Assembly (NCBI RefSeq): GCF_024055635.1
Contig: NZ_JAMXMB010000025.1
Coordinates: forward strand, 124,001 to 188,000
Length of the DNA: 64,000 nucleotides
Reading direction: 5' to 3'
DNA from: Microbacterium yannicii
Lineage (GTDB): Bacteria > Actinomycetota > Actinomycetes > Actinomycetales > Microbacteriaceae
Under the pieces are notes generated by a model. It had not been told where the DNA came from, searched no databases, and saw nothing but the letters and a program-made list of their open reading frames with translations. The position numbers were made by a program, and so were the translations under genes. Positions 12,824 through 15,743 of the stretch are shown here, piece after piece. Numbering within the stretch: position 1 is the stretch's first letter; each line of letters opens with the position of its first letter.

Positions 12824-13222
12824 TCAGCTGCGGCGGTCCTGCACCTTGTTCTTGATGAACAGGGGAGGCAACAGCCACGTCGCGAGCGCCGTCACCAGCC
12901 AGACGATGAGCGTCCCGATGATCCACGCCACGGGGCCGTTGATGCCGATGCCGGCTGCCGGGATCAGCACCGCGATGAGAAGTGCGACGAAGGTAGAGAG
13001 CAGGCCGATGCCGCCGATGAGCGCGTTGGCATGGCGCCGCGTGATCTTGAACAACCAGGGCGCCAGGATGCTCTGCAGCACCGCGAAGATCACGACCGCG
13101 AGGACGATGCCCCACCAGTCGTCCCAGTGGAGGGTGAAGCCCGGCAGGATCAGGTCGGCGACGATGAGGCCGAGCGCCGCCGACACGAGGAAGATCAGGG
13201 CGCGGATGAGGAACGTGAGCAC
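12824..13222 (-). CDS. Small integral membrane protein of the phage-holin-4-2 (PF04020-like) family
   Basis: A 132-residue protein with four membrane helices, the GFTLHWDDWWG motif after the first helix and the short charged C-terminus KNKVQDRRS. The family is widespread in chromosomes and its holin name comes from distant similarity; no lysis role is implied and no phage genes lie around it. It stands alone 60 bases upstream of the LuxR-type gene on the same strand. Function is unknown. Confidence 0.8.
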   Translation of the reverse strand: MLTFLIRALIFLVSAALGLIVADLILPGFTLHWDDWWGIVLAVVIFAVLQSILAPWLFKITRRHANALIGGIGLLSTFVALLIAVLIPAAGIGINGPVAWIIGTLIVWLVTALATWLLPPLFIKNKVQDRRS

Positions 13223-13297
13223 GCCCTCACCCTAGCGCCGCGGCATCCCTCCCCCGCAGCATCCCTCCCCCTCGGGTTCCGCCCGCTCAACCGTGTG

Positions 13298-13356
13298 TTC
13301 ATCTCCGTCGAATGACGTTGCGACAGGGCGTAGCGTGCGCAATTGACGGAGATGAA
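13298..13356. repeat. Hairpin element A, downstream of the DUF559 gene
   Basis: A 59-base inverted repeat with perfect 12-bp arms (TTCATCTCCGTC at 13298-13309 and its complement at 13345-13356) and a weaker inner pairing (TTGCG/CGCAA). The arm sequence matches that of a second element on the other side of the DUF559 gene. Confidence 0.85.
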
Positions 13357-13391
13357 GCAGGGCTTCTTGAGGTGAGGTGGAGAGGGCGGGC

Positions 13392-14366
13392 TCAGCGGTG
13401 CTGGGAGAGGGCGGCGCGGACGCGACGCACGGCCTCGCCCGGCGCCCGGTCGATGTGATGGCTGGTGAGCCGCACGATGCGCCATCCCAGCGCGGCGAGT
13501 GCTTCGTACTTGTCGATGTCGCGCTCGAGCTGCGCACGGGTCAGGTGTCCGTCGCCCTCGTACTCGATGCCCACTCGTCGGTCGGGGTAGGCGGCGTCGA
13601 GGCAGCCGACGAAGCCCAGCGGGCCGAAGACGTCGTGGTCGAGCACGGGCTCGGGAAGCCCGCCGTCGACGAGAACGAGGCGCAAGCGCGACTCCTGCCG
13701 GCTCGACGCTCCGGTGCGAGCCCGCTCGAGCGCTGCACGAAGCAGCGGCGCCCCGCGGCGCCGGCCGGCGGCGAGTGCGAACGCGAGGTCTTCTCGAGAG
13801 GCGAACGGCGCACGCTCGGGAGGCCGGAAGCCGCCCGGGTGGCGCGGCACGCGGATGAGCGCATCCGCCACCGCGACGAGGTCGTAGAGTCCGAGCGTGC
13901 CTCCGAGCGATGCCCAGGTCGTGCCCGGATCCGTCACGGGGATGCCGTGCCGCGTCACCACGCGAGCCATACGCGGAAGCACCTGCACACCACGGATGCC
14001 GGCGCGAAGCGGAGCCGTCCGGGGATGGTGGACCGCGACATGCAACCTGTCGTGGATGCCCATCGGAAGGGGCGCCTCCCAGAGATGGGCCGCGGTAGGG
14101 CCGGTGAAGAAGGCGCCCGCGGGAAGGAGCGGAAGGTACGCGGCGATCCTTCGCTCGAGGTCGTGGCGTTCGCGCACCCACGGAGGTTCGTCGTCCGCGA
14201 CGCCGAACCGCTCGCGCCGGACCCTCCCGCCGTGGAAGATCCGCTCGAGGTCGGGCGCGTCCAGGCGCGCGCGGCGGACCCCCGCACGCCGCGCCTCCCC
14301 CACGCGGAACGAGAGTCCCATCTCCTGCGGAAGGGCGTGGCGCGGCATCCCCTCACTCTCGCGCAC
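13392..14366 (-). CDS. DUF559-type (Vsr-like endonuclease fold) protein
   Basis: A 324-residue protein. The N-terminal two thirds resemble the AbiEi-like/winged-helix region found in actinobacterial DUF559 proteins (FTGPTAAHLWEAPLP is a recognisable block). The C-terminal roughly 100 residues form a restriction-like fold: DAAYPDRRVGIEYEGDGH supplies the D and E-Y-E acids, followed by RDIDKYEALAALGWRIVRLT, all typical of DUF559/Vsr-like nucleases. The start may be the ATG six codons in (MPRHALPQEM). It is monocistronic and bracketed at both ends by matching hairpin elements. Biological role unknown; family members are usually called endonuclease-domain proteins. Confidence 0.8.
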   Translation of the reverse strand: MRESEGMPRHALPQEMGLSFRVGEARRAGVRRARLDAPDLERIFHGGRVRRERFGVADDEPPWVRERHDLERRIAAYLPLLPAGAFFTGPTAAHLWEAPLPMGIHDRLHVAVHHPRTAPLRAGIRGVQVLPRMARVVTRHGIPVTDPGTTWASLGGTLGLYDLVAVADALIRVPRHPGGFRPPERAPFASREDLAFALAAGRRRGAPLLRAALERARTGASSRQESRLRLVLVDGGLPEPVLDHDVFGPLGFVGCLDAAYPDRRVGIEYEGDGHLTRAQLERDIDKYEALAALGWRIVRLTSHHIDRAPGEAVRRVRAALSQHR

Positions 14367-14486
14367 ATCCGCGCGGCCCGATCGGCGTTCTCCACAGCCC
14401 CTCTCGTCGCTGTCTTGCCCCCTGCCCTGCGTTCACCCAGGACCGGCGCGTAGGTTCGCGCGGGGCGGGGCCTCCCGGCACACCGG

Positions 14487-14548
14487 GGTTCGTCTCCGTC
14501 GAATGCCGCGGTGGAGGCGCCGCTGGCAGCGTTCGACGGAGATGAACC
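14487..14548. repeat. Hairpin element B, upstream of the DUF559 gene
   Basis: A 62-base nested palindrome with 17-bp outer arms carrying one mismatch (14487-14503 against 14532-14548) and an inner stem (TGCC at 14504 against GGCA at 14525). The core GACGGAGATGAA at 14535-14546 is identical to the right arm of element A at 13345-13356. Confidence 0.87.
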
Positions 14549-14580: not shown

Positions 14581-14676
14581 GCGGCGCGCGTCAGGCGTCG
14601 CCGCCGGGGCGGCGCGGGTCAGGCGCCGCCGGGGCGGCGCGGCGCGGGTCAGGCGTCGCCGCCGAGGGCGGCGAGG
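14581..14676. repeat. Three near-copies of the prfA stop-codon region
   Basis: The motif GCGCGGGTCAGGCG with a following CGCCGCC run occurs three times in direct order, and the third copy contains the prfA stop codon (TCA on this strand). It looks like small-scale slippage or duplication at the 3' end of prfA in a very GC-rich stretch. Confidence 0.7.
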
Positions 14677-15743
14677 CGCGCCTCCTCGTCGGCGGCGATC
14701 GCCGACTCGATGATCGGCTCGAGGGCGCCGTCCATGACCTGGTCGAGGTTGTACGCCTTGTAGCCGGTGCGGTGGTCGGCGATGCGGTTCTCGGGGAAGT
14801 TGTACGTGCGGATGCGCTCGGACCGGTCCATGCCGCGGATCTGCGAGCGACGGGCATCGGACGCCGCCGCGTCGAGCTCCTCCTGCTGCTTGGCGAGCAG
14901 GCGTGCGCGCAGCACGCGCATGCCGGCCTCGCGGTTCTGCAGCTGCGACTTCTCGTTCTGCATCGACACGACGATCCCGCTCGGCACGTGGGTGATGCGC
15001 ACCGCCGAGTCGGTCGTGTTGACCGACTGACCGCCCGGACCCGACGAGCGGAACACGTCGATCTTTAGGTCGTTCGGGTCGATGTGGATCTCTTCGGGCT
15101 CGTCGACCTCGGGGAACACCAGCACCCCGGTGGTCGACGTGTGGATCCGCCCCTGCGACTCGGTCGCCGGCACCCGCTGCACGCGATGCACACCGCCCTC
15201 GTACTTCAGGTGCGCCCAGACGCCCTGAGCGGGATCGGACGAGGAGCCCTTGATCGCGACCTGGACGTCCTTGTAGCCGCCGAGGTCGGACTCGTTGCGC
15301 TCGAGGAGCTCGGTCTTCCAGCCCTTCGACGCGGCGTACTGCAGGTACATGCGCAGCAGATCGGCGGCGAACAGCGCCGACTCGGCGCCGCCCTCACCCT
15401 GCTTGATCTCCATGATCACGTCGCGCGCGTCATCGGGGTCGCGCGGGATCAGCAGGCGGCGGAGCCGCTCCTGCGTCTCGCCGAGGCGCGCCTCCATGGC
15501 GGGCACCTCTTCGGCGAACGCCTCGTCGTCACGGGCGAGCTCGCGGGCGGCATCCAGATCATCGGATGCCGCCAGCCAGTCCTCGTGCGCCTTCACGATG
15601 CGCGACAGCTCGGCGTAGCGCCGGTTGACGCGCTTGGCGCGCGCGGCATCGGCGTGCACCGCGGGGTCGGAGAGCTCCTCCTGCACCGCGCGGTGCTCGT
15701 CGATCAGCGCCCGGACGGAATCGAACATCGCGGGTTCGACCAT
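14649..15743 (-). CDS. prfA: Peptide chain release factor 1
   Basis: Recognises UAA and UAG stop codons and releases the finished peptide from the ribosome. The 364-residue protein carries the RF1 codon-recognition tripeptide PAT at residues 192-194 and the catalytic GGQ at 237-239 in [13 protein letters not shown]. The start may be MVEP at 15743 or MFDSV five codons in. It follows rho by only six bases. The enzyme that methylates its GGQ glutamine, PrmC, is about 7.6 kb away instead of adjacent. The C-terminal codons lie in a triplicated GC-rich repeat. Confidence 0.96.

Follow-up and report, generated by a model that had tools for sequence, protein, structure and literature searches.

A nuclease gene bracketed by matching hairpins in Microbacterium yannicii: a candidate REPIN-like system with an unrelated nuclease

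Why would a single gene lie between two palindromes written in the same letters? The question is raised by a locus of Microbacterium yannicii, for which we analyzed a window of 64,000 nucleotides (coordinates below are counted from its first letter). Read along the minus strand, this locus displays a class-I release factor gene (prfA-like, 14649..15743; Pfam PCRF 8.5e-62 and RF-1 3.3e-40), hairpin B (14487..14548), a gene of 324 residues (13392..14366), hairpin A (13298..13356) and the gene of a small membrane protein (12824..13222) whose likeness to holins of the 4_2 type stays below the cut-off (Phage_holin_4_2, 1.5e-4). All three genes are on the minus strand; no strand is assigned to the hairpins. 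The release factor gene is the conserved upstream neighbor and adjoins the nuclease gene in orthologous loci, and the holin-like gene is the conserved downstream one; in genomes lacking the nuclease gene, the latter directly adjoins the release factor gene. A first-pass annotation had described the central gene as a DUF559 gene for a Vsr-like nuclease, had compared the ensemble with REP palindromes and their RAYT transposases, and had proposed a mobile or selfish unit.

The two hairpins do match each other. The arms of hairpin A (13298-13314 and 13340-13356), located downstream of the nuclease gene, are 17 nt long with a complementarity of 88%, and those of hairpin B (14487-14509 and 14526-14548), located upstream, are 23 nt long with a complementarity of 87%. 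Positions 13297-13312, in the left arm of A, are the exact reverse complement of a 16-nt stretch found in 14532-14547, in the right arm of B, and the 12-mer GACGGAGATGAA is present without mismatch in three of the four arms (starts 13298, 13345 and 14535), the fourth one carrying GACGGAGACGAA at 14489 with a single mismatch. The bracketing of one gene by two matching hairpins is therefore borne out. When folded as single-stranded DNA, both sequences performed better than every one of 200 shuffles (z -3.6 for A and -5.9 for B). A common nested design had also been attributed to them, and both are indeed hairpins, but the inner stem is strong in B and weak in A. No Rfam family matched either of them up to E 1, and a known RNA was discarded as their identity on this basis.

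The AlphaFold model of the protein is confident (mean pLDDT 95.3) and predicts a fusion of two parts, namely an AbiEi-like N-terminal part (residues 8-217, 13716..14345 on the minus strand), which we propose to be the arm-binding one, and a C-terminal nuclease domain of Vsr/EDxHD fold (residues 222-324, 13395..13703 on the minus strand). With VIA-align, the former was superimposed on AbiEi (6y8q_A, Z 8.4, rmsd 5.7 over 175 residues) and on Rv2827c (1zel_B, Z 6.9), and the latter on I-Bth0305I (3r3p_A, Z 10.1), 3hrl (Z 9.3) and Vsr (1cw0_A, Z 8.1). The AbiEi likeness, which comes from this second aligner and not from Foldseek, is likely but not proven, its Z being near the level of chance matches. 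Foldseek itself returned no match to the model at E 0.001 or better, its best one being 3r3p (I-Bth0305I) at 0.015, and a sequence profile of 47 relatives gave weak matches to 3r3p (E 0.023) and 3hrl (E 0.088). In these 47 relatives, E225, E268, H274 and D283 are invariant and D257 is conserved at 90% or more; read across from the alignment with Vsr, these five residues are putative active-site residues. As for the family name, the predicted fold is Vsr-like as had been announced, whereas the C-terminus reaches only 17.4 of the 20.6 bits asked for by the DUF559 model and 29 of the 38.2 bits of MTES_1575, both below cut-off. The MTES_1575 cut-off is passed by relatives in 54 of 119 genomes of the genus, some of them in frames of more than 2000 aa, and among the 47 members Pfam detected MTES_1575 in 43, DUF559 in 35 and no other family at E 0.01. 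Pfam found no match in residues 8-217 and no transposase in the gene.

Do the hairpins belong to a repeat family spread over the genome? The first-pass annotation had suggested searching for the 12-bp core in inverted pairs. Such pairs exist at the gene but they are not dispersed: the 12-mer has four copies in the whole 4.44-Mb genome, three of them at the window locus and the fourth (contig C36) a single arm with no nearby partner, and the hairpin pattern TCTCCGTCRAN{15,45}YGACGGAGA matches twice, both times at the window locus (reversed control, 0). Across the genus this pattern is present in 6 of 198 genomes, and in two of them, G040 and G017, the outer arms do not extend. On the other hand, the window's genome holds five other family matches at E 0.1 or better, and three of these have hairpins with other letters: TTCTGCCCGG at L015, CTCGCTCGCTCAACGACCGG at L016, and at L018 an array of TTGGCGAGTCGCC with a spacing of 39-40 bp. 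Nothing striking was seen at L014 and L019 in the first hairpin scan; a laxer comparison then revealed matching arms on both sides of the gene of L014 (L112), with the core CAACTCCTCA. The idea that DUF559 genes are surrounded by one and the same repeat family was thus rejected, since the window 12-mer is nearly unique in its genome, its pattern is found in few genomes and other genes have other arms.

We then asked how often relatives of the gene are flanked by a sequence of their own, taking the longest word common to both gene flanks, on either strand, with a threshold of 14 nt. The first sample consisted of 80 loci, that is 75 places down the genus-wide E-value list (frames of about 280-500 aa, some passed over) and the five family genes of the window's own genome, three of which were already known to bear hairpins; L110, with a much longer frame, was dropped. 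In this Microbacterium sample, the threshold is reached at 38 of 79 loci, compared with 0 of 80 control genes taken from these loci, and at 37 of 75 once the remaining four own-genome loci are removed. For the second sample, named genomes were scanned, 251 relatives were confirmed, the best 80 of the 251 were kept and five of these were skipped. The 75 usable loci come from Microbacterium, Mycetocola, Leucobacter, Curtobacterium, Herbiconiux, Agromyces, Cryobacterium, Pseudoclavibacter and others; 42 of them reach the threshold of 14 nt. In the controls, it is reached by 3 of 111 other genes, at 8 of 292 shifted positions and in 3% of 800 cross-locus pairs. Three of these loci overlap with the first sample and 13 with the 120 loci of the survey described below; the count becomes 41/72 without the three, and 9/20 for records titled with another genus. 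Finally, a search over the order, with genomes of the same genus counted, detected relatives in 165 of 297 genomes, belonging to 51 of 92 genera. For the other genera it covered, a shared word is present in 5 of 8 loci from the same family and in 4 of 10 from other families of the order, counts that come with no control genes and were drawn from 28 loci minus the duplicates L248 and L251, the broken frame of L272 being kept as a miss.

Hairpins of at least 14 matched pairs are also concentrated around the genes, their density being 0.86 per kb in the 250 bp upstream and 1.27 per kb in the 250 bp downstream, compared with 0.11 and 0.07 beyond 1 kb, which is 8 to 17 times denser. We nevertheless preferred the shared word as a measure, because part of this excess stems from the flanks being intergenic. 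No common word of at least 14 nt was found in 55 of 120 loci, and hairpin arms match on both sides at a score of at least 9 in only 29 of 102 loci (L110, the four contig-edge loci L140, L149, L151 and L158 and three duplicates being excluded). For gene starts we relied on the longest frame, and for the calling of control genes on GC3 alone. Among the shared words, some are GC-rich and terminator-like or are not hairpin arms (for example L299, L303, L061, L056 and L264), a noise that the controls of both samples carry as well. Altogether, about half of the surveyed family genes are flanked on both sides by words particular to the gene, many of which are arms of inverted repeats, and the association between gene and palindrome is strong in Microbacterium and its relatives.

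One would also wonder whether these hairpins could be ordinary terminators or mRNA stabilizers, unrelated to the gene between them. Their position would suit this role, hairpin A lying about 35 nt past the stop of the nuclease gene and hairpin B about 100 nt past that of the release factor gene, and the dispersed copies described below often lie tens of bases from gene ends. But terminators leave unexplained a private word that is found on both flanks and changes with the protein, and we disfavor this explanation, which is scarcely credible. Palindromes that are probably terminators do recur near gene ends in the genus, at 13238-13269 and at many other loci (such as L112, L299 and L303): they resemble GGATGCCGCGGC and add noise to the flank test.

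The next question is whether gene and hairpins travel together. An insertion-sequence-like unit with terminal inverted repeats would have matching inverted arms on both sides, as seen here, and would leave empty orthologous slots, which do exist: out of 30 loci containing the holin-like gene, 16 have the release factor gene about 30-200 bp off with no nuclease gene between them, and 3 further ones have a gap of 0.4-0.9 kb with no nuclease match. The closest relatives, however, keep the same neighbors. The slot between prfA and the holin-like gene is common to 13 other genomes of the survey by linkage, with both neighbors matching directly in 11, and protein pairs are syntenic in 13 of 13 cases at a relative score of at least 0.7 and in 11 of 12 at 0.6-0.7. 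Furthermore, no transposase was found by Pfam, and the family has just three weak matches in the plasmid collection and one in the phage collection. An insertion sequence was rejected on the basis of synteny, and the mobile unit initially proposed now appears very improbable. The gene rather seems to be mostly inherited in place while the arms change, and its dN/dS, 0.12-0.20 in nine pairs, is as under purifying selection.

The two findings that the first-pass annotation had named as refuting its proposal, hairpins occurring widely without DUF559 genes and syntenic DUF559 orthologues lacking hairpins, give a mixed picture. Three of 14 syntenic orthologues have no flank word of at least 14 nt in common, the rest sharing one. 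Hairpins of the window's type, rare as their pattern is, also occur without the gene: G045 possesses two such elements with no cognate gene beside them and an empty prfA-holin slot, one of the two being located between two genes that we take for dnaJ and hspR (these names, like ilvE and helicase-like for other genes, are our reading of the translations and not the result of a family search). As a side observation, a lone hairpin, ATTCGCGACGAGAC..GTCTCGTCGCGAAT, was seen by eye in the empty slot of G017 (L223).

A comparison between the window's genome and G049 illustrates how variable the slot can be. The release factors are 97.5% identical and the holin-like proteins 97%, and the nuclease just 44%; the arms differ between the two genomes, yet they are matched on both sides of each gene. 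Such a contrast, together with the emptiness of the slot in some genomes, could fit a self/non-self or addiction device, in which the protein would attack DNA carrying, or lacking, the sites and the slot would vary like restriction specificities. Against this idea, none of the PADLOC and NCBIfam defence models fits (best E-values of 0.05-0.1, touching the nuclease domain only), and Pfam identifies neither of the two neighbors as a methylase or an antitoxin. We therefore regard such a device as improbable.

Arms and proteins diverge together. In a survey of 120 loci, from which 11 duplicates had been removed, arm similarity and protein similarity are correlated in the 82 hairpin-bearing ones (Mantel r 0.18, the largest of 1000 permutations giving 0.08). 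Starting from the protein P0001 of G049, the arm goes from GTTCACTTGCGCTGAACGTACG at 100% protein identity to GTTCACTTGCCCTGTTTGTACG at 68%, GTGACTTGGCGTATATGTACG at 58-59% (two genomes), TTCGTTCGTCGCAGATGTACG at 50% and finally GTTCATCTCCGTCGAA, that of the window, at 44%. Likewise, in three syntenic classes the two flanks of a same gene share at least 14 nt in 32 of 46 loci, compared with 56 of 662 pairs (12 of them via L130) when the upstream flank is confronted with the downstream flank of another orthologue. Since nearly all close protein relatives are found in synteny, the correlation may arise in part because the loci descend from a common ancestor; among non-syntenic pairs at a relative score of 0.5-0.6, arms are alike (score of at least 10) in 1 of 19. 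Because the letters of the palindrome are private to the gene and drift with the protein, these sequence comparisons suggest that each protein recognizes its own DNA sign.

In one lineage the element is found far from the gene. Copies of GTTCACTTGCSCTG number 9-34 in six of the 198 genomes and 1-2 in three, and there are none in 189. The six rich genomes lie among the 11 that have a near-full-length match to P0001 of at least 51% identity, three more genomes having partial matches of 51-52%, and many of their copies are arranged as inverted doublets. In four genomes, 30 of 32 dispersed elements measure 61 bp and two 62 bp. Aligned without gaps at 61 bp, 49 elements from six genomes show outer 14 bp that are near-invariant except at position 11 (G or C), variable positions 15-17 and an unconserved 17-bp center; the exact 14-nt seed of the search favors elements with intact outer arms. 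Pairing is seen in 93% of the stem positions, and 22 of the 49 elements have variable triplets that are concordant in both arms (shuffle mean 10.3), although within lineages this agreement gives P 0.02 and 0.14 only and does not separate a hairpin from a binding site in double-stranded DNA.

Many of the dispersed elements occupy orthologous sites and are thus old and inherited. Some sites differ between genomes: the element at G052:4129561 is missing in G049, the one at G191:1352157 is missing in G174, and the one at G049:1601550 is missing in the window's genome and present but diverged in G052. None of the present/absent sites compared offered a clean insertion junction, and at the empty G049 site there is still a string resembling the end of an element, which may be a remnant, so that insertion and deletion cannot be told apart.

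The pairing of arm and gene is not strict, given that the GTTCACTTGCGCTG arm is present in 9-18 copies in G028, G052 and G101, whose hairpins at the prfA-locus gene bear another one. Together with G045 and the loci without a shared word, these misfits could be old families whose gene has been lost or replaced, or could reflect a loose recognition. In G101, copies of the GTTCACTTGCGCTG arm were also noticed at contig ends (C1:6-19 and C23:6-19), where one would expect repeats that interrupt an assembly.

The dispersed elements bear on another explanation, according to which all of them are operators, the upstream one serving the AbiEi-like part to repress its own gene and the dispersed ones to regulate a small regulon, with the nuclease being secondary. 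AbiEi and Rv2827c are described as autoregulating through inverted repeats (PMC7319586), the element has a constant length, and its outer 14 bp are near-invariant even at orthologous sites, though the exact 14-nt search favors such copies. An operator hardly accounts, on the other hand, for the matching element downstream of the gene or for the conservation of the residues that align with the Vsr active site. Moreover, according to rough gene calls, 12 of the 32 dispersed elements lie between convergent genes and only 5 between divergent ones, the others being between codirectional genes (13) or inside a called frame (2); an earlier count, on partly the same sites, gave 5 convergent and 1 divergent of 23. 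We consider this explanation rather unlikely, even if it deserves more credit than those discussed above.

A parallel can be drawn with REPINs and RAYTs (REPtrons), in which palindromic arms arranged as inverted doublets are dispersed between genes and a dedicated nuclease gene lies near or between the same repeats. This likeness, already noticed by the first-pass annotation, has gained weight from the relatives, about half of which are flanked by their own matching words, and from the lineage whose element is dispersed as 61-bp inverted doublets. RAYTs are described as single-copy genes unable to move themselves (PMC3116915). As with REPINs and RAYTs, the nuclease gene has the repeats on either side, in the window as in about half of its relatives. 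Dispersal varies, with two hairpins, both at the gene, for the window's arm, dispersed copies of GTTCACTTGCSCTG in six genomes, and 76 occurrences of TTGGCGAGTCGCC in the window's genome (mostly clustered; reversed control, 3). Movement would correspond here to presence or absence at orthologous sites. Unlike RAYTs, which are tyrosine/HUH transposases, the protein joins a Vsr/EDxHD-like nuclease fold to an AbiEi-like part, and unlike REPINs the copy numbers are low and, by eye, no GTAG tag is seen in the arms. The system would work like REPINs with RAYTs without being a member of this group, because its enzyme is unrelated.

Other known systems resemble it in part. The C-terminal 100 residues have the fold of I-Bth0305I and of E. 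coli Vsr, and we know of no repeat family belonging to either. A homing endonuclease gene inserts into the homologous empty site once this has been cleaved; slots without the gene exist here in some genomes. These two enzymes differ from the present one, I-Bth0305I being presented as a homing endonuclease of phage origin (PMC3943268) and Vsr as a mismatch-repair enzyme (PMC12907096). With AbiEi and Rv2827c the protein would share the fold of residues 8-217, and these antitoxins also bind inverted repeats; they differ in that they belong to toxin-antitoxin operons, exert their action on their own promoter and are described as two-domain proteins, with no nuclease domain (PMC7319586). The CGTC-tagged REPs are likewise palindromic repeats found in dimers and, as presented in PMC3733652, seem to be without a dedicated transposase. 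They differ by their distribution, mostly in alpha-proteobacteria, and by their stems of 8-9 bp and loops of 4-5 nt (PMC3733652), and the term DUF559 is absent from that paper.

We thus propose, as a reading that we find modestly probable, a system resembling REPINs whose nuclease is unrelated and recognizes its cognate arms, and in which cutting and repair homogenize the elements and the gene is transmitted vertically. We infer the recognition, the cutting and the spread of the repeats as follows. The AbiEi-like part would bind the arms, one protein per arm and two per element, and the Vsr/EDxHD-like part would nick or cut at the element, its substrate being either duplex DNA or an extruded hairpin. 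Subsequent repair or replication would copy and homogenize the elements, so that gene flanks and dispersed copies stay alike; like a RAYT gene, the nuclease gene would stay where it is and be inherited vertically, with turnover confined to the repeats. With arms of about 14-23 bp on either side of a free center and a total of about 60 bp, an element would leave room for two proteins with their nuclease domains over the center. Published descriptions are in line with such an arrangement, AbiEi binding two 23-bp inverted repeats and Rv2827c pairs of repeats with a 13-bp gap (PMC7319586), and I-Bth0305I dimerizing on a target of nearly 60 bp (PMC3943268). The window is then the minimal case, with one gene and two elements.

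For some dispersed palindromic repeats of bacteria, no enzyme is known. In the present case, statistics tie a nuclease family unrelated to RAYTs to its repeats, a tie which holds in two nearly separate samples and is weaker in the other genera of the order. In the literature that we searched, which included few subscription papers, no link of DUF559 to palindromic repeats was found; PMC12907096 deals with a DUF559 Vsr-like protein of Caulobacter, in passages where repeats are not mentioned. As many genes bring their own arm, they form natural pairs of protein and site from which recognition rules could be read, and a domain of unknown function becomes testable, its likely substrate being written beside the gene. 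A broader hypothesis, possible but one that we would not yet count on, is that of a repeat class with its own enzyme across the Micrococcales: many AbiEi-Vsr lineages would each have private "addresses" of about 45-65 bp kept alike by cutting and repair, and the prfA-holin slot would be swapped between species like a specificity locus. If so, a REPIN-like system would have evolved independently on an unrelated nuclease fold, and the order would harbor a natural library of protein-DNA recognition pairs.

Further repeats were noticed in the course of this work. The TTGGCGAGTCGCC clusters (L111, G000:C39:92233-93957, and about a dozen others of G000, the window's genome) have in several cases the 39-40-bp spacing, and one of them surrounds another family gene; the palindrome looks like a repeat array with variable spacers. 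At L016:1912-2169, at a contig end (G000:C41), a 128-nt unit with the hairpin CTCGCTCGCTCAACGACCG is present in two near-identical tandem copies, following a long frame, helicase-like by eye, that has an MTES_1575 match near its end. In the window itself, 14581-14667 holds three imperfect GC-rich tandem copies of 28-30 nt, at and just past the release factor stop, which look like a repeated end of the release factor gene.
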